Part shown: positions 1 to 45,065 of the stretch, in pieces
Layout of the letters: every line of letters begins with the position of its first letter
Position numbering within the stretch: position 1 is the first letter of the stretch
DNA from: Scolanthus callimorphus
Taxonomy: Eukaryota; Cnidaria; Anthozoa; Actiniaria; Edwardsiidae
Assembly (NCBI GenBank): GCA_033964015.1
Contig: CM066915.1
Span: 4,265,575-4,329,574 of the forward strand
Direction of reading: 5' to 3'
DNA: 64,000 bases
The notes under the pieces: model-generated
What the model was told of the DNA's origin: nothing
Database searches by the model: none
Seen by the model: the letters and a program-made list of their open reading frames with translations, nothing else
Translations under genes and position numbers: made by a program

Positions 1-1510
1 CCTATGCATTTCTGACAAGTAGTGATATTCTTTCTAAACACCAATCAGGGTTCCGATGCCTTCACTCAACGGTCACTGCCCTTCTTGAGGCCACTAATGA
101 CTGGGCATTCGACATCGATCGCGACACCGTGAACTCTGTAGTCTTTCTTGACCTCAAGAAGGCTTTCGACACTGTCAATCATTCAATTCTACTTTCAAAA
201 CTAAATGCTTACGGCTTTGAGTGTTCTGCAAGTAATTGGTTTGCGTCCTACCTTTATGGTCGCATTTAGAAATGTTTTGTGAATGGTCATCTCTCGGAAG
301 ATCGCACCCTTCTTTTTGGAATTCCACAAGGCACAATCTTAGGTCCTCTCTTGTTTCTGATGTATATAAACGATCTTCCGAATTGTGTAGAACACTCAAA
401 GCCACGCATGTATGCCGACGACACTCACCTGACATTCGCGAGTAATAATGTAGAAAATTTTTATCTAAATCAAGATCTTACTAATGTCAGTAAGTGGCTT
501 GTCGCTAATATGCTCACCCTGAACCAATCTAAAACGGAGTTCATGCTTATTGGCTCCAGACAACGTCTATCAACCTTCAATTCAGCCCCCTCTTTGGCAA
601 TTGAAGGAGTACCTATAAAACAGGTATCCCACACCAAATCGCTTGGGGTGCATATTGATGAAATCTTTCTTGGGATGAGCATATACACAAACTAAGCAAA
701 AAGATTGCATCTGGCATCGGAGCCCTGAAACGTGCTAGACCATTTGACCTGGCAACGACATTGCAGTACATCTACAATTCCCTAATTCAACCTCATTTTG
801 ATTACTGCTCTGTCGTCTGGGATAATTGTAGCATAACCCTCGCCGATAAACTCCAAAAGTTACAATATCGAGCTGCGAGGGTTATGACGTTTTCGAGCTA
901 TGACACTAGTGCCGACCCTTTGATTCATCAGTTAGGCTGGAGAAAACTCGATATTCAACGAACGTTTCAAAAAGCTGTTATGGTCTTTAAATCGCTCCAT
1001 GGTCCTGCACCGGAATACTTATCTTCTATCTTTACAGAACGTAGCAGCATAACCAGCTATACTTTGAGAGACACCGAGGGCAAACTAGCTATTCCAAAGC
1101 CCCGCACAAACTATATATTAAATATATATATTTAACATAAATCTCAACCCTTGGTTGTTGTTGTTCATGTTCACGTCTCCGCCGACGCAGACCACCTAGT
1201 TTTCCCGTAAAACTAGTCATACCATTATATATTAAATAGTTTATCTAAAATGGTGCGGTGCTTTGGAATAGCCTTCCGTCTGAGTTGAGGCAAGCAAATA
1301 CCCTTAGTAAATTTAAAGGTGGCTGCAGCAACTTCTTCCAATAATTGGCAACGTAATATATAGTTTCACACACGGCACTCTGGAAAGCAGTTTTTATTTA
1401 CTATTATTTCACATTATTACAGGTTATTGTATCAGATATATATTATTACTTATTGTATAGACACATATAACTGAGAGTCGCCCGTGTATAAATAAAGGCA
1501 TCTCTCTCTT
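1..1510 (+). pseudogene. LINE reverse transcriptase fragment (Jockey/CR1/Rex-like), broken
   Basis: This is the 3' part of a non-LTR retrotransposon ORF2; its 5' end lies outside the window. The reading shows [12 protein letters not shown] near 150-190, GIPQGTILGPLLF near 318-357 and the catalytic MYADDTHL box near 408-431. After that come thumb and C-terminal blocks such as LTLNQSKTEF, LIQPHFDYC, LQYRAARV and LWNSLPSELR (near 1262). The copy is dead: there is a stop at about 268 just before KCFVNG, a frameshift near 660, and a 102-bp insertion at 1125-1226. A short 3' tail with an AATAAA-like signal follows up to about 1500. The family type is inferred from motif spacing; the RT identity itself is secure. 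Confidence 0.85.
1125..1226 (-). mobile_element. Short retroelement insertion in the LINE, related to the hammerhead-bearing insert at 36907-37046
   Basis: The LINE reading is interrupted here by about 102 bp flanked by a 13-bp direct repeat (TATATATTAAATA at 1112-1124 and 1227-1239). The insert is nearly identical, on the opposite strand, to part of the insert at 36907-37046; about 90 bases match with roughly one difference. Its first matching base lies within a few bases of the predicted hammerhead cleavage point seen in the longer copy. It has no coding capacity. Penelope-like elements and retrozymes carry such ribozymes; assignment to one of them is inference. Confidence 0.65.
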
Positions 1511-3695: not shown

Positions 3696-4363
3696 GTGAA
3701 TTAAGGCTTGGCTTTCGAATAAAATAGCATAAAATTATATTTTGCATTAGCACTTTTGCTATTTGACATATCATGTTCAGCTGTTTATGGGAGGTACATA
3801 TTAAGACCCGTGACATTTTGATGGGCATAAAATTTCATTTCAAGGGTCACGTGACCTTAAGGGAGCTAAAATGAATTTTCGAAATGTACTTAGCATTAAA
3901 ATAGCTAAGTGAAATATATATTATTTATGAGAGGGTTAGGATGGTTATGAGAAGGGTTATGAAATAGACTTTGCAGGTTGACTACCGCTACTTGGGAAGG
4001 AGATATTCAGGAAAATGTCATATGCAAATTAGGTCACGTGACCTGTTTTGCAGGATATCTCACGTTCTGAAAGGTTTTTCCAAACTTCAAAAACTATTCC
4101 TTAAAGTACTCTGGGAAAGGAGCAAAATGAATGGTAATTTGTAGTATCCTATATTTTCCTTGTACTTCCCATTTTTAATTGAAAAATGTGGCTCAAATTC
4201 CAGTGCTAGCTTGTCACGTGACTACTCTTCGTACCGGAACAGGTATCAAATTTTTTGGTTCAAGGTTTTCTATTAATACATACCAAAACATTTGATATTC
4301 CATCAGTCTGTAAGATGAAATGTCTTAAAAATCAATTTATTGAGCAAATTGGTGTCTAGCCAG
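3696..4363. other. Putative intron between LRR exons
   Basis: AT-rich sequence with three scattered GTCACGTGAC/GGTCACGTGACC-type palindromes (near 3845, 4033 and 4213). No coding potential was seen. It ends in GTGTCTAGCCAG, a usable acceptor. Confidence 0.4.
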
Positions 4364-5180
4364 GCCTTAATCTGCCTGAGGGCGCTAAATCTATTTATTA
4401 GCTGTAGAGATGATGCGGCGGCAGAACATCTATGGACCGCTCTAAGGAGTGCTAATTGCAGACTAACAAAATTAAATTTAATTTGGAATCAAATAACGGC
4501 TAAAGGGGCTGCTTTTCTATCAACAGCACTCGCGAGTGGTGAATGTCGCCTGGAACATTTAGATTTGGCAATCAATGATAAAGGTGCTGAACATCGAAGG
4601 AATTCTCTCAGTAGCAGTAAGTGCAGTTTAACAAAATTAAGATTACATAATAACCACATAGGGCATGAAGGGGCTTATTTTCTATCAGAAGCACTCAAGA
4701 GTGGTAACTGTCGCCTGGAAGAGTTAGATTTAGGAAATAATAATATAGGCGATAAAGGTGCTGAACATCTAGGGAGTGCTCTCTGTAGCGATAAGTGCAG
4801 TTTAAGAAAATTACGTTTACATAGAAACATGATATGGGATAAAGGGGCTGATTTTCTATCAACAGCACTCGAGAGTGGTAAATGTAGCCTGGAAGAGCTA
4901 GATTTAGGAAATAATAATATAGGCGATAAAGGTGCTAAACATCTAGGGAACGCTGTCAGAAGTACTAAAAGCAGACTAATACATTTAGTTTTAGACGAAA
5001 ACAACATAACGGCTGAGGGGGCTGCTTTTCTAACAGAAGCACTCGAGAGTGGTGAATATCGCCTGGAAAAGCTAGATTTAGGTGTGGTTGAATGAAATAG
5101 GTGATTTGGGGCGGAACATCTATGGAAAGCAATAAAGTGGAAATTGCAGTCTGGTAGACTCAAATCTAGAGAATAACGGC
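4364..5180 (+). pseudogene. NLR-type leucine-rich repeat fragment, frameshifted at its 3' end
   Basis: Seven to eight ribonuclease-inhibitor-like LRRs of about 28 residues follow one another from about 4430 to 5095. The recurring pattern is L..LDLGNNNIGDKGAEHL with spacer ALxSGxCxL. Such repeats form horseshoe-shaped ligand or nucleic-acid sensing domains in NLR proteins, a family strongly expanded in cnidarians (established knowledge). No NACHT domain is visible nearby. The open frame stops at 5095 after LEKLDLG. Sequence just beyond still resembles another repeat (IGDLG, AEHLWKAIK), but only after two frame changes, so the 3' end has decayed. It could also be an exon of a gene whose remaining exons are elsewhere. 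The neighbouring repeats are near copies, which suggests recent internal duplication. Confidence 0.7.
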
Positions 5181-21048: not shown

Positions 21049-21057
21049 GTCGTGTTT
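21049..21057. repeat. Target site duplication, left copy (GTCGTGTTT)
   Basis: Directly abuts the left terminal inverted repeat and is identical to 33001-33009. Confidence 0.88.
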
Positions 21058-21122
21058 CAATCTCGTTCCCAGAGCCCGTGAATCTTTGAGCCAGCGGCAA
21101 GATTCAGAGCTCTGGGATAATC
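21058..21122. repeat. Left terminal inverted repeat of the RecQ transposon, probable promoter
   Basis: The first 21 bases and a 16-base inner block (GAGCTCTGGGATAATC) match the right repeat exactly, and the stretch between has about a dozen mismatches. TCCCAGAGC and GCTCTGGGA inside the repeat can pair, so the end itself can form a hairpin. The helicase ATG lies 55 bp downstream, so the promoter must lie in or beside this repeat. Confidence 0.88.
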
Positions 21123-21177
21123 AATTTTTTTTGGTCAGGATCTGGGCTTCCGGTTTTAGTGCGCATGTCTTTCCAAC

Positions 21178-24100
21178 ATGGCGGACAAACTTGAAGACTT
21201 TCACAAAGCTATTCAGTTCGCCCTGGAAAAACTAGGGAAACCTGAGTCGTTCGCTCTAAAGGAACAACAGTACGAAATTTTAAAAGCCGTTGTGTTAGAA
21301 AGGAAGGATGTTTTGGGCGTTTTGCCGACCGGCTACGGCAAATCTTTGATTTACCAAACCATAAGTTTCATTTCGGACTATTTATACTGTGGTGTCGAGC
21401 AGCAAAAGCAAACACTTGGTGGTGATTCTCAACCTTCTGTATGTTCTGTGGTTTTAGTTATATCTCCCCTGAATGCTCTGATTGAGGACCAAGTAGAAAA
21501 GTTGAAGGCTCATATAAATGTTGATGTACTAAAGTACAATGGCCCAGATTCAATGACTACAAGCTCAACACTTAGCTCGAGCAGCGTGAACATTGTTTTT
21601 GCACATCCGGAGGTAATTTTGGACAACCAATTTAATCGTAATCGCAAGGCTTTCCAGAAGCGCGTCTGCGCTATAGTGGTGGATGAAGCTCATCTTATTG
21701 AAGAATGGTAAGTTTTCTGAGTTTCTTTCATAAGGAGCAATTAATTTGAAGGCGGAAGAATTCCGAAAGAAACGATAACCGAACGAAAAAAACTTAGCGG
21801 TTTTATCCAGCTGCTTTTGCCAAAAGTTTTGTTCTTTACTCTTGCTCTTAGCCGTCTGCTATAGAAATTATAAATTCACACACACCTTATTCCAAAATGG
21901 CTGACGGGCCCTTGTGGCCTCATTCTCATGAAACAATTCTTTTGTTTTATATTCACTCAAGGACAAAAGATAATTTCGTCAAAGTGAGTCCACAAGGGCC
22001 AATGGAACAAATCGTCGGCCATTTTTGAATAAGGTGTATTATTTAACAATTAGTCGCCTCAGGCTCCGTAAAGATCGGCGAATAGTCACCGAGGCAAAGT
22101 CGTGGTGACTATTCACCAATATTTACGGAGCCTGAGGTGACTAATTGTTTTTATTAGTATAATTACCCAAGCTATGCTAAAATTTTTGACAAAAAAAATT
22201 TAGGGGAATTTTTTTAGTTTCTCATAATAAAGTGTGTGCATGATCCCCAATGCTTTCAGTTATATTCACCTATATAGCAAAGTATTTCGAACGTCTCAAC
22301 CAATCAGCGCACAGAAAAGCTTGAGTAATTATACTAAAGTAAGTTATATAACTAAACTGCAGACAAAAATACTTTAGAAATAGTGGATTCAATATATGCA
22401 GTACTAGATTCCTCTTATATTATTACAACGTCTACACAACCAATTTTTCCTTGATAAATGATAAATATATTTGACAGTGTAGATGAGCAGCAAGTATTTC
22501 CCAGAAAGCTCGTTTTTAATGTTATGCTATGATGAGTAACCCCCTTTGCAAGATCCCCCATATGTAGATGTTTTAAGCAGACCAAAGAGTTATTTTACAG
22601 GGACTCCATGTCATGAGTAGAAAAGCAAAATATTGTGATAATTTCCAAAACGTATTTGTTGTTCCTCTACACAAGCAATTTTTCGCGTGAGAATGTTTTG
22701 TTTATTAAATACATATAGAAGCTTGACATGCTAGTTTTTTTAACAAGGAATATTTGACAAGGACAATTGACAATTTTTGCTATACACAGGCAATTAATAA
22801 GAACTGTCAGATACAAATTGTGTCTACATGGTCAATTATATTTGTTAGGCAGAATTGCTCTGTGCTTTAGCTTCAGCACAACCTATCAACAACAAACTTG
22901 GCAATTTACCAAATTTTTGGTGCTCTGTCCAGGATAGTCTTTAAAATATATTTTTTCTCATTTTTGTTTTTTGTTTTTAATAAAAGATGAGCCACACACA
23001 GAAAATCTTAGCTTGATTATATCAGGTAAAGAAATGTGCAAGTCCAAAAACAAATTCCATAGCTCAACTAGGTAGGGGATTTTCAAAAGGTTTGTCCTGC
23101 ATCTCTGAAATTTCCTTTAAAAAATGCCTCTTCTCCTCTTGGAAAACCTGACCATTGTGGTGGGGGTACATTCCCTTCTAGCAGAAGCCTCTTTTCTCTG
23201 CATTTTGCTGGCTGAGGTTCGCAAGGAAAAGTCTCTTTTCCTCGCAAACCTCAGCCAGCAAAATGCAAATAACAGAGGCCTCTGCTAGCAGGAAGGGGGT
23301 ACAGTGAACATGTATGGGCTCTTTCTGAAGTATGTGACAGTGAACACATGGTCACTCCAGTAACTATGAGAACTCAAAAGAGAAAAATTGTTTTTAAAAT
23401 TTTTCAAACTCTTATGGACATGTTATATTGTTCTGGTTAAACAGGAAGGAGTTTCGACCATCTTATGGGAAACTTGGGGTTCTTGGAAACTATTACCCTG
23501 GTGTGCCCATTGTGGGCCTCACAGCAACAGCTACAGCAAAGACCCAATTGGTGATCTGCACTTCCCTTGGACTTTTTGATCCTTTGGTAATAACTATAAA
23601 CCCTGACAGGCAAAATATATATTTTGCATCACACAGAAGGAAAACAGGGGGTGAAAATAAACTGTCTGAGATTCTGGAACCTCTTGTGGTACAATTGAAG
23701 ACAGAACGACAAGATTTTCCTTTGACTTTAATATATGGAAACCTGGAAACTATATCTGAATGCTACATGTACTTTAATGAATCATTAGGCCAAGAGCAGT
23801 ATCACCCTCCAGGGGCTGATCGTGTTGCAAAGAACAGAATGTTTACACAGTACCATGCCCAGTATCCATCCAGTGAACGCAAGAGAATAGTGTCTGAGCT
23901 TGTAAGTAATAAATCGAAGCTTAGAATATTATTTGTGACAATTGCATTTGGCATAGGGGTGGACATAAATAATATAAGACAAATAATCCACATTGGCGTT
24001 CCATATACGATGGAAGAATACCTTCAAGAAGCTGGCCGTTGTGGTAGAGATGGGTTGCCTGCCAAGGCAATAATATATTTCAATTGCTATGACATTTCAT

Positions 24101-24615
24101 CTGCAAGGGTCCACATGACTAATGTCATGAGGGAATATGTGACACAGAACAAATGCAAACGTGAAGCAATTTTGAGCTATTTTGGGTTCCAAGTTCCCAA
24201 GAGAAACCTTCCAATGCATACTTGTTGCGACTACTGCAAAACATTTTGTGACTGTGATGACTGCATTATTGATGCAGCATCTGAATCAGAAGTTTCTCTT
24301 TTGGCTAATAATGCGAGCACCACCCTAAGCATATCCCAAGTAGATGAAGTAACTAATAAGGGGTTACCTAAGGATAAAAAACAGTCCCTTTTGGATAGGC
24401 TTCATGAGTACAGATTATCACTGCATGGCACTGGCAGGTCTTGTGTTGGAGGAGTTTCATTGGCTACAGGATTCAGCATAGAGCTAATGGAGTCAATTGT
24501 AGATAATGCAAATTCCATTTCCTCAGTTGAGGACATTATTACAGAATATCCTGTGTTTTGTGCAGATCGATTTATGGCATTCTTCAGGAAATTATTTAAT
24601 AGATTAAATCAATGA
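21178..24615 (+). CDS. RecQ-family ATP-dependent DNA helicase (transposon-borne), two exons
   Basis: Exons are 21178-21707 and 23445-24615, joined GT-AG in phase 2 (G/GTAAGT donor, TTAAACAG acceptor), giving 566 residues. The start is in CCAACATGGCGG. Superfamily 2 motifs occur in order: Q-motif region LKEQQ (27-31), Walker A TGYGKS (51-56), Ia ISPLNALIEDQ (95-105), DEAH (169-172), TATAT (203-207), motif V TIAFGIGVDI (342-351) and motif VI QEAGRCGRDG (371-380). RecQ usually has QxxGRAGRDG; here a Cys replaces Ala. A cysteine-rich cluster (437-450) resembles the RecQ zinc-binding subdomain. No HRDC domain was seen. RecQ enzymes unwind DNA 3' to 5'. Here the gene sits inside a transposon and converges with a transposase-like gene, so a role in element mobility or repair of excision sites is inferred. 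An AATAAA lies at about 25059. Confidence 0.92.
21882..22335. mobile_element. Foldback MITEs in the helicase intron
   Basis: ACACCTTATTC.AAAATGGC at 21882 is mirrored by GCCATTTTTGAATAAGGTGT ending at 22037. Next, ACAATTAGTCGCCTCAGGCT at 22047 is mirrored to 22148. TAGTATAATTACCCAAGCT at 22155 is mirrored by AGCTTGAGTAATTATACTA ending at 22335. These are two or three adjacent or nested palindromic elements. All lie within the intron and do not touch the splice sites. Confidence 0.75.
23171..23294. mobile_element. 124-bp hairpin MITE with GGGGGTACA direct repeats
   Basis: Both halves pair over about 50 bp (GCATTTTGCTGGCTGAGGTT against AACCTCAGCCAGCAAAATGC). The ends hold CTAGCAGAAGCCTC and GAGGCCTCTGCTAG. 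GGGGGTACA lies on both sides (23162-23170, 23295-23303), consistent with an 8-9-bp target duplication of hAT type. Located in the helicase intron. Confidence 0.75.
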
Positions 24616-26327
24616 CAACTATTTGTTTGCACACTTAGGATTTCAAACTGCAAGGTGTACCATTATTTCCAAAGCCATGTGACCCACACCAAACTGTACT
24701 GTAGCTATATGAGTGGGTGTTTCCTTTTAGAAATTCTGTCCCTGGTGGGGTATTGATTTTCCTGTAATCACACATTAATCTTCTTTGCCTGTTACAAGCT
24801 GTTTTTTTTGTGTGGCTGATCTTTTATGAAAGAACTTTGGTCAATAATTGTCAAGTTTGACGGTGATAGGTTGTGCTGAAACTACTGTAGTGTTATGGCT
24901 GCTATGCTGCAACCATGTGTAATGCCATGACATTTTATAGAATTCACCATTGTCTAATATTATGGTAGTCATTTGCCTGTGGATTAGTTATAATAATATA
25001 TAATATAATAATATATAATAATATATAATAATATGAATTGATATTGTTAATTCCAGAAAATAAATCATACCTCCTCCTAGGAGGAAACTGGATATTCCAA
25101 GGGAGGGGGGTCAATCTGCCTGATTTTCCAGGGAGTATTAAAGATGCTATTTTCCATACAAACACTGTATTTTTCTTTTAGAAATTCCAGGGGGCATGGA
25201 TTTTTTCTGGAATTACACATTAACTGACGGCTAAGAGGATTCTTCAATCAGATGAGCCTTTTCCACCACTAGCTTACTACAACAATTTTCCAATCTCCAT
25301 AGCTCATACAAATGTACTTTTAAGGGGTTACCTGTGTCCTGATTAATATTTGTATTTAGAAAAAAGCACATGTTACTGTTTTAATTTATACTTTTCATGA
25401 TGCGCTGAGTACTTGGACAGTGTTCCTTGGTTATGGGTACATGTAGATCTAGGGATGATGAAGAGATTTCCCCCCATACATTCTTAGTACAGTATCATTT
25501 TCTTGTAAAAAATATTCCTTTAAAATTCTGGATCAGGCCTTGTTTGCCATTTTTGATTAGGAACAAATTGACCTTTCAACTGAAATCATGGCTCATATTA
25601 GTGCCGAAATAATAATGTCTTCCAAAGTGCAGGCAATGAAGGAAATATCCATACCCTCATCACCAAAGGGTGCTTTGGTATGACCCCACACCCCTCCAAA
25701 ACCCCCAAACATTTCTCAGGGCCACGCCTAGAAATTTTTTTGTACAGGGCAAACCTAAGTGCTCTTGGTAGTTGCCCTGGTGCTGCCTCCCTCCCTCTCC
25801 CACTAGATACAGCCAGTGATTTGTATGGCCGGAAACTCATGAGTATTGATTGTTGAGATATAGAACACATCATTGGGCAAGCTCAACCTCAGGAGTACAT
25901 AACCAGTGACAAAAAACAATGAACCCAGTTAAAAAAACTTGGTGGGATGTTAGCATTAGGGATGGAGCATTGGACAAGTGATGGGGGGTGACTAGTTTGG
26001 AAGATGAATTTTTTTTTTGTTTATCATGGTGGGTTATCTGGCAGATTTATCTGAAATTTTCTAGGAAGAGTTTTTTTTATAATTATATTTTTGCTTTTGT
26101 CGAATTCCCCCATGACTTTTGTAATGGGCCATCCCTCAACCTGAGTAGTATGCAAGTGGTGGTTCTATACCAAACCCCAAAGCAACCTTGTGAATAGGGT
26201 GTATACACTACAATACCACAGTGCGTCAGTAAATGTGGAGGCTATAATACTGCAGTGCATCAATATTGCAGGCTATAATGCTGCAGTGTGTCAGTATATG
26301 TGTGGAGGCTATTATGGTAGAGGGTAG
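24616..26327. other. Spacer between the convergent transposon genes
   Basis: It holds an AT-rich TAATATA microsatellite (about 24988-25034), an AATAAA (25059) and a foldback-like block at 25080-25215 with GGGAGGGGGGTCAATCTG and CCATACAAACACTGTATTTT. Near 26210-26310 there are three units of a ~40-bp repeat containing GGCTATAATACTGCAGTG. No gene was seen. Confidence 0.6.
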
Positions 26328-29300
26328 TTACAGCTGAGGATCTTCAGTGTCACCCATTTCATCTGCCTCATCTTCTAATGCCGCATCCTCTTCTGCACCA
26401 GCGTCATCACAATTTGCAAGATTATCCCTCGCTAGCCTTCGTTTATGCCTATTCAGCCAGGTGTGCAGAAGGGCAGTGTCTAGCTGATCGAGTGGGCTTT
26501 TGGTGATAGTTGGGAAAGAGCGATGAGCTCTTCCAGGGTGATGCTCAAATGGCTTTATGCCATGTAGCAATGTTATCATCTCCCTGATGTCTTGGGTAGT
26601 GCTTGCCTTTGTATGTGATGCTGAGTCTGGTTGAACATTGCTTGTCTTGTCAAAGGATTGTATCACCTTGGATAGACCATAGGCAGCTGCACTGCTTCGC
26701 TCTACTGCCTTCAGTGACTTATTGCCACACAAGCCTCGTGGGATTACTTTGTATTGCTTGATGAGCATCTCCATACGGAGGTCATGTGCACAGTTTTTTC
26801 CTTCTCCTCCTTTTGTATTCACAAACTGGCCATGCAGAACACGGTGTGCCATTTGCTCAGTGTAAAGACCCTTTACATATGTGATGAGCCTCATAGCCTC
26901 ATAGGCATATTTCATGCCATTTGTGCGTGACCTAAAGTACAACATTAAGAGCTTCCAGTTTATGAGACTTCTTTCGCCATCACCCTCTTTTTCAGTGTCA
27001 TTTAATTGCATTAACATCATGCCTAACTGGATGCACTGTGATGCATAGTTCATTACTCTGTCATCTTGGTCAGATTTAATATCTGACATGGGAGATGGAA
27101 GCTTGGGTGTATTCCCCTCTCTTACTGTACCTACTGCCCTTTCTTGTGGAATTGCCAGATGCACACGTGGCCACAAAACTATGTTACCAACTTGGATAAC
27201 TCCTCTTGCAATTGGTTCGATGTATGATACAAGAACTGGGACAGATTGACAGGTTTGAGAATTTTCCACATTTAGAACTTTCCCAACGCCAAGAACATCA
27301 TAACCCGCAGGTGCTTTTGGACGTACCATAACAACAACTTCACCTGAAGGACAATAAAAGGATTTTGATCTTGGAAAGATCAATTTATACAATTTGAATT
27401 TTCAGGGATATTGTGTGTTACCAGAAAATTATTTTTACCCTCCCCAGAAAAGGTGTAGTGATTTGTATGAAAATTGAGTTTCCATTTTTTTCTATGGAGG
27501 GGTATCGAATATGTTTTCTGGAATACACAATTGTGGTTTGCAGATTTCAACAAACATCTAAGCTGGCATTTTGCAGTGATTGAAGAATAATATCCAAAAA
27601 CTCCATGGTAAGGTCACATCCATTTATCACCTGTATTTTATTGCTATGGAAGCCACTGTTATTGATACATAAACCATTGTTAATTTTTTTAATCAAAATC
27701 CACTGTGGTGGGTCCAATATGCAAATTATATTTACCAGCAGAGAGCCTAGATACAGTTGGAGTCCCAGTACTAGAAGTAGAAGTGGTAGGTGTCTGCTGC
27801 CTTTGGCCAGCTGCTTGGGTTTTTTGTTGCTGTTGCTCTCGCCAGCTTTTCTCTATGTCAAATTCAACTAGCACAAATTCTTCAACAAACTTTCCAATAG
27901 TATTCATAATGAATGCGTTCTTCTCTTCCTCACTGGCTCTTGGATCAACAACTTGAATCTTAGTTGGTTTTCCATCCAGGCTATCTAACCCTGCCCATGT
28001 CATGAAAGCAGAACACAAGTAGGCCTTTGTGGCACACAATGCAAGGTGCTCTGCACCCTGGTAGTTTTTCTTGACCTTGGTGTAGACATTAGTCATGTGC
28101 CATTGCTGGCGCAAATGATACAGAGTTCCAGGTTCACGACCACAAATGGCATCAGCTTTGTAGAGCTGTTCCCACATGTACTGTAAAGAAAAGAGTATTA
28201 AAAAGTTTTCCATTAGCAGTCAGCTTTCATTATGTTAGAAATACCACAGTAAAGGGTCTGTTCCAAATCTTTAGGGACAGAGATTATTTCAGAGATTCCA
28301 GCAATGCTTGGCCAAAAGTGTATATTGTTACTAAAAAGTTTAATACCTATTGCCTTTATTGTGGTGTGATTTTGAAGGTTCCCATGAAATAAATAATCAG
28401 TGGTACCTGTAGTCATGCCAAAAAATTCTCATGAAGACCCGAGAAACTGAATGTGTGGTTCCAAAAAATATCCATACCCCCTGACGGAAGGGTGTTGAAA
28501 AGTGACCCCCCAACCCATCTGGAATTTCCGAAGAAAAATACAGTATTTTGTATGGAAAAGGTCAGGTAAATTGACCCCCCCCCCCCCCCCCCCCCACCCC
28601 ATAATTTCTGGAAACACACAATTTCAAAGTCTAAAATAAATACAGGAATGTATATAGGATATCCATTGGCAAATATTTTTCATCCAACATTCTGTGAACT
28701 TTGAATTCTATTTCCTCAGGTTCCACGAGAAATGTTTGGCAGGATGATAACAGCTTATTACTTATATTCATACCTTTCAAAAAACACCACAACTAAATCA
28801 AAGGATTTGTTACTTTTTAGTAACAAGATTTTTGACTGCTTCATGTTCATATTGCTTGAAGTTCTAAAACAACTTGTCTTAATTGTCTGAATGAAGAAAC
28901 ACTTATACAATAATTCTCCTTTGTGTGACAGCCATAATTGTCTGCCAGTAAAGAGATTTTTGCTATACATTGGTGTTGAGATAATTCCAGGTGTTGAGTC
29001 CCCCCAGGTCTCCCCCCCCCCCCCCCCCCCCCCCAACACACACACACCTATGGAATTCCCAATCCCTCCTTTGGGGGAAGGGATTTTTTTTCTGGGACAC
29101 ACAAAAAATTGCCAGTGGTGCTTCCAGAGGCAGAGCGAGGTATACAAGGTTTGCTGATCCCTGGTAATTACTTTCATGGTGACCTGTTCTAGAATATGAG
29201 TTGTCTCTATTTTTGCCAGTTTTCTTGAAAAGATTATTTAAGATTGATGGATTCTCAAAGACTGTTACACCCAGGTAAAGGCCTGAATCCTCAACTCCTA

Positions 29301-32300
29301 GAGCAGCACATCCACTTACATTTTTTAGTGTAAGAAACACCAACACAACATTAATATTTACCCCTAAAAATGACTGCTTCGCATGCCAAAGTGTTGGATT
29401 CTCAATTTCATTCTCAAATCTGTCAGTACTGTTGTCACATCCAAGTCTGGTCTTTTTAGCTCCGGTTACTCTCTCCCGACCCAGCAGGTCCCCACTGAGA
29501 GGTACCTTCATATCTTTCAAGATTTGTTCTCTCTGAGCTGCAACTTGTTCTTCAGAAGCACCAGCTGGCAAGACTGGCTCATCATCTGGTATGCTTACTT
29601 TCATCAAGAAGTCTTGGATGTACTCCAGGTACTGACAGACATCCGCGTGCTTATTTTGATTGTATGGTACGATGGGAAGTCCTATGATTGTTGATTTCTC
29701 TGCCATCTCTTTTGAATACCTACATAATAAGAATAAAAATATCTGGGTTATACTGGTTTGAAATGACAGAAAGCACAATCCTTTTACCTTGATTAGCTGG
29801 GCTGGCTACAGAGAATACCCATATCACTTCACAATGGGCTGTTTCATATATCTGTTACCCCCTATTGAGGAATTTTGAAATTTCACAGTGGTCGCTGTGT
29901 TTGACGATGGAATTTCCATGGGGTTTTTGATTTTGACCCTCAGAATTTCCACAAGGTCTGTGATTTTGGCCCTGAAATTTCCACAGGGCCATTCATTTTA
30001 CCATGAATTTCCACAGGGTATTGATTTGCAACTGTGGAATTTCCACAGGCCCACAAGAGAATGATGGATTTCCATAGCAGTTGCTTCAAATTTCCACAGT
30101 GGTTGTGCAGGAGTCTGGAATTTCTACAGGGGTAGAGCAATTTTTGAAAATTTCCTCGATAGGGGGTACATTTTGGAACAGCCAATATTGATATCCATCA
30201 AACAGCGTAGCTAGGGTTGCATACCTATGTGGTATATGTAGTAAAACTTCACTGCTGACATGATTTAGACAGGAAAAGAATTCCACAAGTACTCTGGCCA
30301 CCAGAATTGTATAGTCCTCCTTCAGTTTAGTTAGCTCCTTCTTGCTCAGTAGGTAATTGATATTGTCAAAGTCTTTCATGATATCAGCCACGATTGGGTG
30401 GGTGCTGTTCAACTGGTCTGAGGGTACCCTATCAAATGTTGCAAAATGTCCTATCCAGTGCATATCAGAATTTCTATGGTTCTTAAGAATGATGTTGGCC
30501 AGAACTTTAAAGTCCAGATTGTCAAATACTAAGCGCACTTTTCTTCCAGCTTGAACCAGCTGACGAACCTCAGATACAACATCACCACCAACTCCATCCA
30601 TAATGCTCAGCAAACTTTCTCTAGTTTGGGTAACACCAATCTTGTTTAGTCTTTGGAATGTCTGAAATAATTTACATGCAGGCATTTTAAACTGGCTTGA
30701 AAATTACTAATCTCATATTAAATCAATGTCTATGGAGGGGGCCTCTCACCCAGCATTGGAGCTTCAAAAAGACAATTATTAAGATCAAAATACATTATTT
30801 TGTGTGGAATATATGGCATCATATCCCTTGAAAATCAGGCAAAGCGACTCCACAGAATCACCAGAATCCTGGAATTGGGCTGTCAATACTTGTCATGTTG
30901 GTATTTTGTGGCTGTTATTTATTCTTCATTAGGGAGAAGTGCAAAGGGAGATACAATAGGTAGAGAGATCTATTTGTGTTGCTACAGTGAATCTTTTTGC
31001 AGATGTAGCTATTTTAAATTCTAAGAATTTATTTCAATAATAAATTTGCTTTGATGTTTCACTTTTGTTTTTCAAAAGGGGGTTTGGGCCCTGCCCCACT
31101 TCATTCCTCTATATATACACCCTTTGGGTTTATATACCTTCTTGGATGCATGGCCCTCTCCAAGGACAACTGCATTTAATTTCTGCACCAAAGAAAGTTC
31201 TCTGTTTCTGTAAAGCAAGTGCATATAAATTTAATAACCCTATTTTTTCTCTAATTTTATTTTCTCACATTTATTTCAAAAGTCTGAGAGGGTACCTGGT
31301 ATTCATTAGCAAGGCATATGCAGTGCAAATTCTTGGGACCTGGCTTCCATCTGATTTTATGGCTGGTGCTGCTATAGCTGTCAGCATTTTCAACACATCA
31401 GGGGCCCTCTCCTTCATCTCAGTCAAAAGAGAAATCCATTCAAATTGGTGCAGATATTTCTGATCCTCTTTTTTCACTCTAAGGACTGATGGATTTTCTT
31501 TTCTACAAAGCACTTGGCACTGACTGCTGATCTTCTGTCTGATTATTGCTTTCACACAAGTACAGAGGAGTGGTATTTTCATAACTGCCTGGGCTATGTC
31601 AGGAGGTGCTGAGTCCATAATCTTTGAAATAAGCTGCTCTTTCTCTTCTGATGTAAGGATCTCTGTGGTCCCATTTTGGTTACTCATCTGTAGAATGGAA
31701 GGTTTTTATACATCAAGACAAGCAACATGCAAAGGGTAGATATAACAGGCTTTTTGCACTTACTGACTTTTGGGATGGTTCACATTTCAAAATACAATGA
31801 CGAGGGGCAAATTTTAATGCCTCTAAATTATAGGCACTATACTTGATATGGATCACTGTCCCCATCCCCCAACATGACCAGGATTTCCCCAAAACCAGTG
31901 CCAGTTCCCATGCTTACATGCAATCATCTTTGAGAGGCAACCAGAACTCAGAAACGGTCCCACCCTTAAGAACTTTAAACCTTCCTTGAAGGGAATTGTC
32001 AACCTTATATCAGACACTAGCCATTTTTTTTTTTTTTGGGGGGGGGGAATTCAAGAATGGGAGGGAGTGTGATATGACACATCCCTTCACTGGCTACACC
32101 ATTGGTTTAAAGTGAGATTTACATACCGAAGTTGTTAGGATCTTCACCCCTGCTTCCCTGTCCAAGTCCGCTTTATTCACTTCTTTTGGTTTTAGGAATT
32201 TCGGTAAGATTCGGGCAGATGTTTCTTGTGCTTGTCCATCATCGACGCTTTCTGTAATCTCTGAAGAATTCTCTGGAGTCGCACTTGCAAGAGGTTTTGG

Positions 32301-32783
32301 TACTATCGGAATATACCTAGAAGAAGAAGTTGTCGCGGCAAATCTAGCTGATAACTTCATCTTTGCGGGTGGACTCGAGGAAAGAGTTTGCCGAGACTTT
32401 TTCTTGGCGTGCGCTACAAGGGGCGAGATAACCGGACCCGACGGGCTTTCTTCGAGTTTTTTTCCTCTCTTGATTCGTACATCTGCAATGTTGGCTTGTT
32501 GTTTTTTATAAGAGTTCTTGCACATAGCTTTAAACTCTCTAAACATCTTAATTCGTCGGGAACATGGTCGGCAAACGTACTGCGATAGTCCGTCATTTTC
32601 TTGGGCTTTGGTCCCTGTAATATCTTCAAAATACTTTCTAATATCTTCTTGCTGGTTTTGCCCGAACAGCCACAAATGGTTATCGTACGGCGTCAAAATT
32701 TTATAACAACAACGACAAAACTTTGTTTTTGAAGCGCTCGCTGGTTTTGTTGGGGTTTTTTCAGCCATTTTATTTTGTAACAT
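26328..32783 (-). CDS. Zinc finger plus DUF6589-like (probable DDE transposase) protein, seven exons
   Basis: Exons in transcript order are 32783-32127, 31687-31296, 31207-31138, 30661-30225, 29719-29362, 28180-27736 and 27343-26328. All introns are GT-AG, and the phases join to 1125 codons including the stop. An in-frame ATG at 32768 has a better context (AAAATGG) and may be the real start. Residues 23-88 form a ZAD-like zinc finger (CRCC, then VCRPC and a later Cys). A basic linker follows. The core then shows VFDNLDF (Asp 420), HWIGHFATFDRV, PLSGDLLGRERV (Asp 596), LWHAKQSFLG, YMWEQLYK and HDLRMEMLIKQYK (Glu 978). This arrangement resembles DUF6589 proteins; the three acids as a DDE triad are inference. 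The C-terminus is very acidic. The gene starts about 220 bp inside the right inverted repeat. Likely role: binding and cutting the element ends. Confidence 0.85.
27408..27534. mobile_element. Small MITE in the last intron of the transposase-like gene
   Basis: ATTGTGTGTTACCAGAAAA at 27411 pairs with TTTTCTGGAATACACAAT near 27515. The interior has CCCTCCCC and GAGGGGTAT. Related termini appear near 28450-28622 (GTGTGGTTCC...GGAAACACACAATT) in another intron. Confidence 0.6.
28440..28625. mobile_element. MITE with poly-C core in an intron
   Basis: GAATGTGTGGTTCC.AAAAA opposes TTTCTGGAAACACACAATTT. Between them lie CCATACCCCCTGACGGAAGG, ATACAGTATTTTGTATGG and a C-run of about 22. Apparent glycine-rich frames here are artefacts of the homopolymer. 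Confidence 0.6.
29837..30183. mobile_element. Foldback element with internal GAATTTCCACAGG repeats
   Basis: The termini GGCTGTTTCATATATCTGTT with ACCCCCTATTGAGGAATTT and AAATTTCCTCGATAGGGGGT with ACATTTTGGAACAGCC are inverted matches. Inside, eight or so short units contain GAATTTCCACAGG, AAATTTCCACAG or a close variant. It sits in the intron between the fourth and fifth exons of the transposase-like gene. Confidence 0.7.
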
Positions 32784-32935
32784 TTATTTGTAACATTATT
32801 CTACATATTCTCTAAACGCGCGGCGCGTTGTGTTACTGGGCGGCAGAACACGTTTATTGTTCTATTCACTTCCGTTTCAATGGCGCATGCTCACTGAAGC
32901 AAAATCAGCAGCCAATCAGAATGGCCCCTCAATTG

Positions 32936-33000
32936 GATTATCCCAGAGCTCCATTTCTTGGCGCTGACCAAAAGAAATGCGGGCTCTGGGAACGAGATTG
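32936..33000. repeat. Right terminal inverted repeat of the RecQ transposon, probable promoter
   Basis: Inverted match to 21058-21122 with the same internal TCCCAGAGC/GCTCTGGGA hairpin. A CCAAT box (AGCCAATCAGA, near 32910) lies between it and the start of the minus-strand gene. Confidence 0.88.
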
Positions 33001-33009
33001 GTCGTGTTT
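33001..33009. repeat. Target site duplication, right copy (GTCGTGTTT)
   Basis: Identical to 21049-21057 and directly abuts the right inverted repeat. Confidence 0.88.
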
Positions 33010-36286: not shown

Positions 36287-37500
36287 ATGGCTGCAACACA
36301 CAGAGCCCCAAAACAATGGTGCCTAACAAAGGTAGAAACAATAAATAGTTTCGAAAAACTGGCGGCAAAACATAATCTACACGTTATCACTCGACGGTAA
36401 TTTCGCTCCTTTCCTCGTCGATGAAGTGACATGGCTGAAAAAGTCTTGAACTCAGCCACTTCGAGCTGGATTTACCAACGATGGAGAGGATGTCGCAGCT
36501 GCCCAGAGAAAGACGGCGCAGCAAAAGGTCAGTATCCTGGAACTCATGCTAGGGCAAGTAGCAAATTACTGCCCAGTTATTTCGAGAAATACCATCATTA
36601 AGAACTCCACATCAATGGATTCTATCTGGCAATCTATCAGGTTTCATTTTGGGTTCCAAGCCACCGGGGCTCACTTCATCGATTTTAATGACATCAAATT
36701 GGAGCCTAATGAACGCCCTGAGGATTTGTACCAAAGATTAGTTGCCTTCGCGGAAGACAACCTTCTAAAGGCAAATGATCTTTCCCATCATGGGGTCACC
36801 ATTACTGAAGATGAAGAGTTATCCCCATCTCTGGAAAACTTTTTAGTATTGACATGGTTAAGACAGATTAATCCCAGTCTCCCCAAACTAGTGAAGCAAA
36901 GGTATGACTAGTTTTACGGGAAAACTAGGTGGTCTGCGTCGGCGGAGACGTGAACATGAACAACAACAACCAAGGATTGAGATTTATGTTAAACGCCGTG
37001 GAAAAATGGTGTTTTGCTGACGTTTCGAGCGTTAGCCCTTCGTCGGAGCAAAGGTATGGGACAGAGCTGAGATCACAAACCCTTGCTTCTATAAAGCCTG
37101 AGATATCTCAGGCATTAGATTCCCTGTTAGAAGAGATCCAGTCTAGCGATGATGCCAGAGTGATGCGTACTGCCGCATTCCGCACGCGTGGCAGGTTCCA
37201 GGGTAACCAGCATAGCACAAACGTCCCAAACAAGGCATCACCAAGGTCTAACCAGACACGCCAGCGCTCTTGCCCCCTTTGTAAACAGGCGGGGCGCCCC
37301 ATTTATGACCACTTTCTTAGCGAGTGCAAGTTTTTACCAGACCATGATCGACGGTTTATTTTAAAGGCCAGACAAATCGCCTCTGTCATCGAAGATGACA
37401 ATGAGCTTTCAGACATTGTTGATGATTTACCCCAAGAAAGCGTTTCCACTGATTTTCAAGACGCCCCTACCACCCCTTTGTCCTGCCTTGTGCAAGTACG
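36287..37500 (+). pseudogene. gag of the LTR retrotransposon, interrupted
   Basis: The apparent start ATGGCTGCAACACACAGAGC is followed by frame changes near 36355 and 36445. An open capsid-like stretch at 36546-36911 includes [10 protein letters not shown] and [11 protein letters not shown] 140-bp insertion plus a 12-bp duplicated target then shifts the frame by 2. The reading resumes at RYGTELRS (37053) and leads to a zinc-knuckle-like CPLCKQAGRPIYDHFLSEC. Removing the insert in thought puts gag and pol in one frame, so the parent had a continuous gag-pol. No restored sequence is given. Confidence 0.75.
36907..37046 (-). mobile_element. 140-bp retroelement insert with degenerate hammerhead core
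   Basis: The insert is flanked by AGCAAAGGTATG at 36895-36906 and 37047-37058. On the minus strand it starts CCGACGA, then a GGGC/GCUC stem with UAAC loop, then GAAAC. This is the hammerhead layout CUGANGA-stem II-GAAA with one core change (U to C). A 5-bp stem III (ACGUC/GGCGU) can form, placing the cleavage site about 55 bp in. The remaining ~85 bp is shared with 1125-1226. Penelope-like retroelements are known to carry hammerheads; the assignment here is by analogy. Confidence 0.65.
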
Positions 37501-37529
37501 TCAGTCACCATATATTGATACTTTCCATA

Positions 37530-39400
37530 AGCATCACCGTGCACGCATCACTATTGATAGTGGCGCAACAGGAAATATGATAAGGCTCTCTACTGTAGAG
37601 AGGCTCGGTGCTAAAATCTGCATTAGCTCCCAGTCCGCGCGCCAAGCAGACGGAACCTCCCCGCTCGACGTAGTGGGCGAAACTGAACTAGAATTTACTA
37701 GAAGTGGGCATACGTTTAATTTCAAGGGTCTAATCATTGAGAATCTCGATGTTGAAATCTTAGCCGGCACACCATTCATGGAACTTAATGATATCTCTGT
37801 CCGTCCGGCAACTCGTCAAGTCCTCCTCGGTGATGGGAGCGCGTTCGTGTATGGCTCCCAACCACGAAATGCTACCCATAGCTCAGTTCGGCGCGCAGTT
37901 ATCCTCCGCGCCCCAGCTGAGTCCACCACCATTTTACCTGGCGATTTCCTAGAGATAGACATTCCCCATGACTTTTCTACCGATGATGATTATGCTATTG
38001 AGCCCCGCACCGATACATCTCGAGCACGTGCTGCCAAGATGTCAGCGGTCTGGCCCCCACCAAGTATTGTCCCCAGCGTGGCGGGTAAGATAAGGATCCC
38101 CAACCTTTCCAACCAACCCCAGAACCTCGGGCGTAACGAACACTTTGCGCAGATTACTCACCTATATGACCCACCTCCCAGCCCCAAGCCTTGCAACCCA
38201 CCAAGCCCACAGAGCTCCAAAGCCAACCCTGCAAGCGCGCCACATTCTAGCGATGTAAAGCTAGACCCCGCTGACCTGCTCCCTTCCGATGTCAAGTCGC
38301 AATTCCAAACTCTCCTAGAAACACACGACAACGTTTTCAACCCAACCATAACTGGGTATAATGGAGCGTCGGGCCTATTTGAGGCTCGAGTAAATATGGG
38401 ACCAGTGGAACCGCCACAGCGCAAGGGCCGCTTGCCCCAGTACTCGCGCGACAAGCTGGTTGAATTGCAAGATAAATTTGACTCGTTGGAAGAACTAGGC
38501 ATTGTACAGCGCCCAGAAGACATTCATGTCTCTGTCGAATATCTCAACCCTTCTTTCCTTGTAAAGAAACCTAACGGTGGGCACCGCTTAGTCACCGCAT
38601 TTGCAGATGTGGGGAGATATAGCAAGCCTCAGCCATCTCTAATGCCTGATGTTGAGACCACTCTCAGGCAAATAGCACAGTGGAAACACATCATAGCAAC
38701 CGACTTAACTAGCGCGTTTTACCAAATCCCATTGTCCCGCGATTCTCTGAAGTATTGTGGGGTCGTCACACCCTACCGTGGTGTCCGTGTATACACCAGG
38801 TGCGCAATGGGAATGCCAGGGTCTGAGACCGCCCTGGAGGAGCTCATGTGTCGGGTGCTAGGAGATTTACTGAAGAAGGGTGTTGTGACCAAGCTAGCTG
38901 ATGACTTCTACTGTGGCGGGAATACCCCTCAAGAGCTGCTCCACAACTTGACAAGAGTACTTATCGCCCTTCACAAAAACAACCTTCGCCTTTCTGCGAA
39001 CAAGACCATCATTAATCCCCGTTCTACTACCATACTCGGGTGGATCTGGTCTCAGGGTACATTACAAGCAAGTCCCCATAAAATATCGGCTCTTTTAGCG
39101 TGCAAACCCCCTGAGACGGTAGGAGGCCTCAGATCTTTCATCGGTGCCTATAAAGTACTCGCCCGTGTCATCCCTCATTGCTCATCTATGCTTGCACCCT
39201 TAGATGATGCGATCGCTGGCCGCAAGTCCCAAGAGAAACTCGACTGGACAGACGATACACTGGCAGCTTTCAGTGACGCTAAGAGCTCCCTATCCTCAAG
39301 CAAGACTATCACCCTACCCCGACGAGATGATCAGCTGTGGATTGTGACGGATGGTGCGGAAACCAGGTATCGGCGCAACCCTCTATATCACTCGTGGTAA
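37530..39400 (+). pseudogene. pol: protease and reverse transcriptase of the LTR retrotransposon
   Basis: The long open frame holds an aspartic-protease motif (TIDSGATGNMI, near 37549-37581) and a central spacer rich in Pro and Ser. A Gypsy-like RT follows with PSFLVKKPNGGHRLV, ATDLTSAFYQIPL, CAMGMPGS and catalytic LADDFYCGG in place of the usual YxDD. The thumb has LGWIW and SFIGAYKVL. The frame enters RNase H at WIVTDGAE (near 39340) and stops at 39400. RNase H continues in another frame from 39351, so a frameshift lies in the overlap. Confidence 0.85.
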
Positions 39401-40076
39401 CCGCGTATCACTGGCAGGCTACTTCAGCGCAAAATTACGAGGGCATCAACCATCATGGCTTCCATGCGAAATCGAAGCGTTAGCCATAGCTGTCGCAACG
39501 AAGCACTTCAGTCCCTACATAATCCAATCCTCAAAAAGTGCTTGTATCCTTACCGACAGCAAGCCATGCCTGCAAGCTTTCTCAAAGTTGTGTCGTGGCG
39601 AATTTTCGACGAGCCCACGTGTTTCCACCTACCTGTCCGCCGTGAGTCGTTATCAGGCATCAGTACAACATGTCGCTGGAGCCGCTATTTTGCAGTCTGA
39701 CTTCGCAAGCCGAAATGCCCCTGAGTGTACCTATGAGGCCTGCCAGGTCTGTACCTTCATAAGGGACGTTGAACACTCTGTTGTCCGAAGCACGTCTATA
39801 CAGGACATACAATCAGGATCTTGCAAGCTCCCGTTTACCAACCGCACAGCTTGGCTATCCCTACAAGCAGAATGCCCCGACCTTCGACGGACGCACGCCC
39901 ACTTCAGACAAGGTACGCGCCCGTCAAAGAAACTTACCAACGTGCGAGACGTTAAGCGTTATTTAAATGTTGCGTCCATCGCCAAAGACGGGCTTCTTGT
40001 GGTCCGAAAACAAGAGCCTCTTGCCCGGATCGCGAATGTATCACTGTTCCTCGCAGATTCCTCCACGGTCTTCTAA
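39351..40076 (+). pseudogene. pol continued: RNase H and start of integrase
   Basis: Frame-shifted continuation of pol. It carries RNase H blocks ([41 protein letters not shown]) and a cysteine-containing linker ([11 protein letters not shown]). It ends in STVF at 40076; the HPSC region of an integrase zinc domain follows in the next frame (near 40093). Confidence 0.8.
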
Positions 40077-44354: not shown

Positions 44355-45065
44355 CTCGAAAAAGGGTAAGAAATTCCTACCAATTTGAAGCCCGTAAAAG
44401 GGTAGAAAATTCCTACCAGTTTGATGCCCGCAAAAGGGTAGGAAATTCCTACCAGTTTGATGCCCGCAAAAGGGTAGGAAATTCCTACCAATTTGAAGCC
44501 CGTAGAAGGGTAGGAAATTCCTGCCAAGTTGAAGCCCGTAAAAGGGTAGGAAATTCCTACCAATTTGAAGCCCGTAAAAGGGTAGGAAATTCCTACCAAT
44601 TTGAAGCCCATAAAAGGGTAGGAAATTCCTACCAAGTTGAAGCCCGTAAAAGGGTAGGAAATTCCTACCAAGTTGAAGCCCGTAAAAGGGTAGGAAATTC
44701 CTACCAATTTGAAGCCCGTAAAAGGGTAGGAAATTCCTACCAATTTGAAGCCCGTAAAAGGGTAGGAAATTCCTACCAATATGAAGCCCGTAAAAGGGTA
44801 GGAAATTCCTACCAAGTTGAAGCCCGTAAAAGGGTAGGAAATTCCTACCAATTTGAAGCCCGTAAAAGGGTAGGAAATTCCTACTAATTTGACGCCCGTA
44901 AAAGGGTAGGAAATTCCTACCAGTTTGAAGCCAGTAAAGGGGTAGGAAATTCCTAGCCGTTTGAAGCCCGTTAAAGGGTAAGGAAATTCCTACCAGTTTG
45001 AAGCCCGTAAAAGGTAAGACCGATAAAGGGTAAGAAATTCCCAGCACTTTCAAGCCCGTAAAATA
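44355..45065. repeat. 36-bp minisatellite with a GGTAGGAAATTCCTACC palindrome per unit
   Basis: About 19-20 head-to-tail units of AATTTGAAGCCCGTAAAAGG plus GTAGGAAATTCCTACC. Because 36 is a multiple of 3, several minus-strand frames remain open (repeats such as LVGISYPFTGFN and IGRNFLPFYGLQ). Those frames are probably not genes: two overlapping frames are equally open, there is no signal or flanking exon, and units decay at the 45000 end. Confidence 0.9.

Follow-up and report, generated by a model that had tools for sequence, protein, structure and literature searches.

A RecQ-like helicase and a zf-AD-bearing candidate transposase in a probable AcademH-type DNA transposon of Scolanthus callimorphus

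Background

What kind of mobile element joins a gene for a RecQ-like helicase to a gene of the unnamed Pfam family DUF6589, and do the two genes move together? The question was raised by a stretch of 64,000 nucleotides of the cnidarian Scolanthus callimorphus (GenBank assembly GCA_033964015.1, contig CM066915.1, positions 4,265,575 to 4,329,574 of the forward strand; the whole stretch is called the window below), in which a first-pass annotation, made from the letters alone, had marked an intact-looking transposon with both genes. The window element is a real, precise, and recently mobile DNA transposon. It is very probably autonomous and of the AcademH type, to which it was assigned because its helicase, the length of its target-site duplication, and its host all fit.

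Termini and copies in the genome

The transposon is 11,943 bp long and spans positions 21058-33000 of the window; the span first given for it, 21049..33009, holds a real element and takes in the duplications on both sides. The terminal inverted repeats (left, 21058..21127, plus strand, beginning with CAATCTCGTTCCCAGAGCCC; right, 32931..33000, minus strand, assigned by inverted-repeat comparison with the left arm) have 70-nt arms that are 80% complementary, with the outermost 21 bases identical, and the termini carry CAATCTCGTnCCCAGAGCC. The 9-bp target-site duplication GTCGTGTTT is found at 21049..21057 and, in identical form, at 33001..33009. Both the inverted repeats and the perfect flanking duplication reported by the first-pass annotation are therefore present. 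The left flank has five extra bases (GATTG) in common with the right terminus; the duplication was fixed at 9 bp because the ends are symmetrical and the sister copies agree.

Genome searches were performed on the 597-Mb assembly. The left terminus gave at least 44 matches (40 of 768 candidates scored), three of them perfect, of which one is the window itself. The perfect match on C11 opens a second full-length copy of 11,935 bp, which is 99.1% and 99.4% identical to the window element in two BLAST blocks (99.6% when only substitutions are counted; 86 gap columns) and has its own, different 9-bp duplication, TTCCACACT. The DUF6589 frame of this copy is open, and its 12 nucleotide differences from the window amount to four synonymous and eight replacement codons. 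When the joined C11 flanks were used as the query, eight matches were obtained, namely one uninterrupted stretch on C1, the two C11 flanks, and five partial matches. The uninterrupted stretch is identical to the joined flanks at 291 of 300 positions and contains a single TTCCACACT; it is a paralogous empty site of the C11 target, of the sort that the first-pass annotation had proposed to look for. From the second copy with a different duplication and the uninterrupted relative of its target, it follows that the window element moved as a unit.

A relative on C5 (17731890-17742932) shares the terminal motif and has the 9-bp duplication CAAAAGGGC. A further family is present on C37, C3, and C9, its left-end stretches being 99.3-99.9% identical and ending exactly at the terminal motif; the C37 copy has the 9-bp duplication ATTATAAAG, and the C3 copy has AAATCGGCT. 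Five long copies (those of the window, C11, C5, C37, and C3) thus show 9-bp duplications. Among 18 further left-terminus loci, nine contain terminus pairs with a duplication of at least 8 bp (11 pairs), and in 9 of the 11 pairs, which belong to deleted copies, the duplication is exactly 9 bp. These pairs are not all independent: the flanks of L014 and L017 are shared, and the two pairs of L015 overlap in their duplications. Two pairings with 4- and 6-bp matches were left out as cross-pairings, and pairings with less than 4 bp were not counted. Eight other loci had no terminus pair within the stretch examined. Copies other than that of the window are hence flanked by 9-bp duplications, a point that had been put forward for checking.

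Helicase gene

The element contains, as first read, two convergent spliced genes, and the frames of both are open. The helicase gene lies on the plus strand in two exons, assigned by translation and domain search (exon 1, 21178-21707, with Walker A and the DEAH box; exon 2, 23445-24615, with Helicase_C and the string QEAGRCGRDG), and encodes a RecQ-like helicase of 566 aa whose sole stop is at the end. Walker A, DEAH, and motif VI are retained. The DEAD and Helicase_C matches are above the Pfam cut-off, and the RecQ zinc-binding match in exon 2 is under it (20.5 bits vs 25). The closest solved structures are WRN first, then RecQ and BLM, which is a RecQ-type match. The wording 'intact-looking' is apt for both frames and less so for the 3' end of the helicase gene, where a 10-base difference from the C11 copy makes the last ~10 residues differ. 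The helicase tree comprises 32 sequences and is indicative, 31 of them having been hand-picked from 120 listed of 672 matches. In this tree, the window helicase falls among cnidarian relatives (support 1.000); these, with proteins from fish, amphioxus, mollusc, and Lithocolla, are split from the RQC-bearing and other RecQ proteins sampled (support 1.000).

The helicase intron contains two hairpin-like inverted repeats (22045-22149, 46-nt arms, 91% complementary; 23174-23292, 58-nt arms, 88%), which are possibly small inserted elements.

DUF6589 gene and candidate transposase

The convergent gene, on the minus strand, has seven exons with GT-AG introns and a product of 1124 aa, in which a zf-AD domain near the N-terminus accompanies the DUF6589 region. 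Its exons in the gene model are 32127..32783 (exon 1, with the zf-AD, or ZAD, domain found with Pfam), 31296..31687 (exon 2), 31138..31207 (the small exon 3, revealed by comparison with homologues), 30225..30661 (exon 4), 29362..29719 (exon 5), 27736..28180 (exon 6), and 26328..27343 (exon 7, with the stop). By motif alignment, the candidate catalytic residues D420 (FDNLDF), D596 (GDLLGRER), and E906 (NDTEKEGDGER) were placed in exons 4, 5, and 7, respectively. The Pfam scores of this gene were computed on a 1112-aa model without exon 3; the DUF6589 match is 114.5 bits (cut-off 27). The protein is the sole candidate transposase inside the element and, judged from its sequence, most likely the transposase of the element, which suggests a transposase function for the DUF6589 family.

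Five homologues at 46-52% identity were obtained by protein search (from Dendronephthya, Oculina, Porites, and Montipora) and ten by profile search, one of them from fish, with the best 8000 word-sharing candidates scored in these searches. The D...EGDGxR motif is kept in all 14 of the sequences that cover that part (17 aligned), and FDN and GD do not vary across the ten-protein alignment. For ten diverged DUF6589 loci of the genome, the longest frames correspond to the last coding exon, with earlier pieces recovered for some; the DN motif could be identified in one locus and GDQL in five, and the remaining matched parts do not span the motifs. Because the diverged loci mostly cover the last exon, fewer sequences bear on the first two acidic motifs than on the third. 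D420, D596, and E906 are read as a candidate DDD/E triad, which agrees with the conservation of these acidic residues. When the DUF6589 alignment was searched as a profile against the PDB, it gave a single, meaningless match (E 0.43), and the 92 pattern matches in viral contigs included no relative.

Pairing of the two genes

The 78 helicase matches in the genome were merged into 72 loci and the 62 + 103 DUF6589 matches into 110 loci, all counts being lower bounds. At least 50 of the 72 helicase loci are paired with a DUF6589 locus within 10 kb (fifty with fifty); the 50 listed pairs comprise 45 convergent, 5 divergent, and no tandem arrangements. The pairing first claimed for a single element is therefore a family trait. 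No DUF6589 locus lies within 10 kb of the other 22 helicase loci among the matches listed; of these, 6 have a listed left terminus no more than 5 kb away and 16 have none. The six terminus-adjacent loci look like deleted derivatives; the copy that holds one of them (L019) is 5,251 bp long and is flanked by a 9-bp duplication of its own. Likewise, 60 of the 110 DUF6589 loci have no helicase within 10 kb among the matches listed, and are not thereby shown to be unpaired. As for genes lying apart from the termini, which the first-pass annotation had raised, the two genes are thus mostly together, with the exception of the loci just given. The linkage may also be present in other cnidarians, since the contigs of P0005 and P0088 (both 965,351) and those of P0002 and P0013 (both 64,437,903) are equal in size, which suggests, and does not prove, one contig in each case.

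zf-AD domain on the candidate transposase

The zf-AD domain, a zinc-binding module most familiar from gene regulators of insects, went unmentioned in the earlier annotation; it scores 44.9 bits in the window protein (cut-off 28; 1112-aa model) and corresponds to 32496-32717 on the minus strand. It is also above the cut-off in two further element lineages of the genome, represented by the C5 relative (42.4 bits) and a C2 relative (47.6 bits). A Dendronephthya homologue has the domain under the cut-off (18.2 bits), which counts against zf-AD as a general trait; it was unreported in three other homologues, of which P0009 and P0003 begin inside the protein and the fish P0010 has the N-terminal part. 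Genome-wide, 20 zf-AD matches were obtained, all over the cut-off (C37 and C3 copies, 28.6 bits). At least 11 of them are placed 5' of a same-strand DUF6589 match at a distance of up to 10 kb (165 DUF6589 rows), an arrangement for which the fraction expected by chance is ~0.1% per match, transposed copies not being independent. The nine that have no DUF6589 within 10 kb among the matches listed may belong to host genes or to elements that have decayed.

The insect ZAD zinc-finger proteins likewise have zf-AD (PF07776), joined in their case to C2H2 fingers and not to a transposase (PMC7655104; this and the other sources given by PMC number are used in excerpt). ZAD zinc-finger genes are said to have originated in the vertebrate-arthropod ancestor (Kasinathan et al.; PMC7655104), and the transposon-linked ZAD described here is cnidarian and thus outside that ancestor. 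Transposons may conceivably have been a source of ZAD, although we consider this rather doubtful; with ZAD on cnidarian transposases, a transposon origin of the insect family becomes a testable idea. No title on ZAD in a transposase turned up in the literature search (titles only). ZAD on the transposase is the less expected feature of an otherwise AcademH-type element.

Classification and alternative explanations

Terminal inverted repeats are typical of Academ, and the window element has them together with 9-bp duplications and an encoded helicase. The AcademH lineage of the Academ superfamily dates from Kojima 2020 (Mob DNA 11:15, via PMC10045372 and PMC10799480); according to PMC10045372, it encodes a helicase and makes duplications of 9 or 10 bp. 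It thus resembles our element as a helicase-encoding DNA transposon with an animal host. Academ-1 elements are already in the RepeatMasker table for three corals (PMC12005156). The first-pass annotation had taken the family to be little described; this was not supported, since a helicase with 9-10-bp duplications is a published mark of AcademH (PMC10045372) and KolobokH elements, too, have RecQ helicases (PMC9587614). Features that may set the present element apart from AcademH are zf-AD before the probable transposase and a helicase encoded by a separate convergent gene. AcademX, a member of the same superfamily provided that the AcademH assignment is correct, differs in carrying a nuclease and making 3- or 4-bp duplications (PMC10045372). 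The genome contains 29 XPG_I matches. Few cellular XPG genes are expected, and the surplus matches are perhaps AcademX elements; when the ORF lists of two of the loci were read by eye, no transposase could be recognised.

Several observations weigh against the AcademH assignment or parts of it. The assignment was made by the published description, and homology of DUF6589 to the Academ transposase is presumed. The nearest of the XPG_I matches is ~80 kb from any listed DUF6589 locus, which provides no link to AcademX. The structure models of P0001 and P0009 are poor (mean pLDDT 43.3 and 41.2; 10-sequence alignment each) and leave an RNase H fold unconfirmed; at these values, the short strands modelled directly before the first two acidic residues are a hint only. 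In the C11 copy, a single-base difference within an A run breaks the helicase frame. Two of the 11 terminus pairs of deleted copies have duplications of 10 and 8 bp, and a terminus pair at L023 is without a duplication of at least 4 bp.

One alternative is a separate, undescribed superfamily: DUF6589 would then be a DDD/E transposase unrelated to Academ, and the RecQ helicase and the 9-bp duplications would have been acquired independently. It is in keeping with this that DUF6589 was unmentioned in the literature searched, the string PF20231 being found only in an unrelated optics paper, and that the likeness to AcademH comes from description and not from a comparison of transposase sequences. 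Duplication length, helicase, and animal host, however, all agree with AcademH as described in the excerpted text, and we regard a separate superfamily as unlikely. A second alternative is a KolobokH-type element, a Kolobok with a RecQ helicase; KolobokH encodes such a helicase, and one Kolobok of a red alga bears it on the complementary strand (PMC9587614). Kolobok duplications, however, are TTAA, 4 bp in length, and in the excerpted text KolobokH is reported from fungi only (PMC9587614). The duplication here is 9 bp and non-TTAA, by which KolobokH was ruled out in length and sequence, and its probability is negligible. Other superfamilies were also considered. MuDR, hAT, and P make 9- or 8-bp duplications; they were set aside as only DUF6589 and zf-AD matched Pfam at E up to 0.1 (1112-aa model).

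The AcademH assignment is compatible with a helicase that is passenger cargo taken from the host and unneeded for transposition. RecQ helicases are host enzymes, the C11 copy has the interrupted helicase frame noted above, and the loci unpaired within 10 kb among the matches listed (22 of 72 for the helicase, 60 of 110 for DUF6589) would be in keeping with such cargo. Against this, at least 50 gene pairs are found across diverged families, 45 of them convergent, and the 32-sequence tree places the window helicase and its relatives away from the RQC-bearing and other RecQ proteins sampled. On these grounds the helicase does not resemble a recent capture, and we judge the cargo explanation improbable.

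Proposed mechanism

The ends, the duplications, the empty site, the movement as a unit, and the keeping together of both genes are observed features of these elements, and the following scheme would connect them. The 1124-aa DUF6589 protein would act as a DDD/E transposase, with DUF6589 as its catalytic region, and the N-terminal zf-AD probably dimerises the transposase or positions it on the ends. The transposase would recognise the CAATCTCGTnCCCAGAGCC termini and join them to target strands whose cuts lie 9 bp from each other, giving the 9-bp duplications. The RecQ-like helicase most likely melts the ends or the target, or processes the strand-transfer intermediate; we infer an unwinding role because the helicase is conserved. 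Why a transposon needs a RecQ-type helicase can suitably be asked in this genome, which offers in one place a near-intact, recently moved element of presumed AcademH type and a related uninterrupted target, besides deleted derivatives and numerous diverged sister families.

Other features of the window

Outside the element, open frames like those of LTR retrotransposons lie at 36929-40073 (plus strand); they have domains of reverse transcriptase and of RNase H, while their match to an aspartyl protease is under the cut-off. A reverse transcriptase fragment is found at 270-692 (plus strand). An open frame at 4319-5092 (plus strand) contains leucine-rich repeats. A tandem array with a 36-bp unit (18.2 copies, 93% matches) occupies 44360-45014 and has open frames on both strands.

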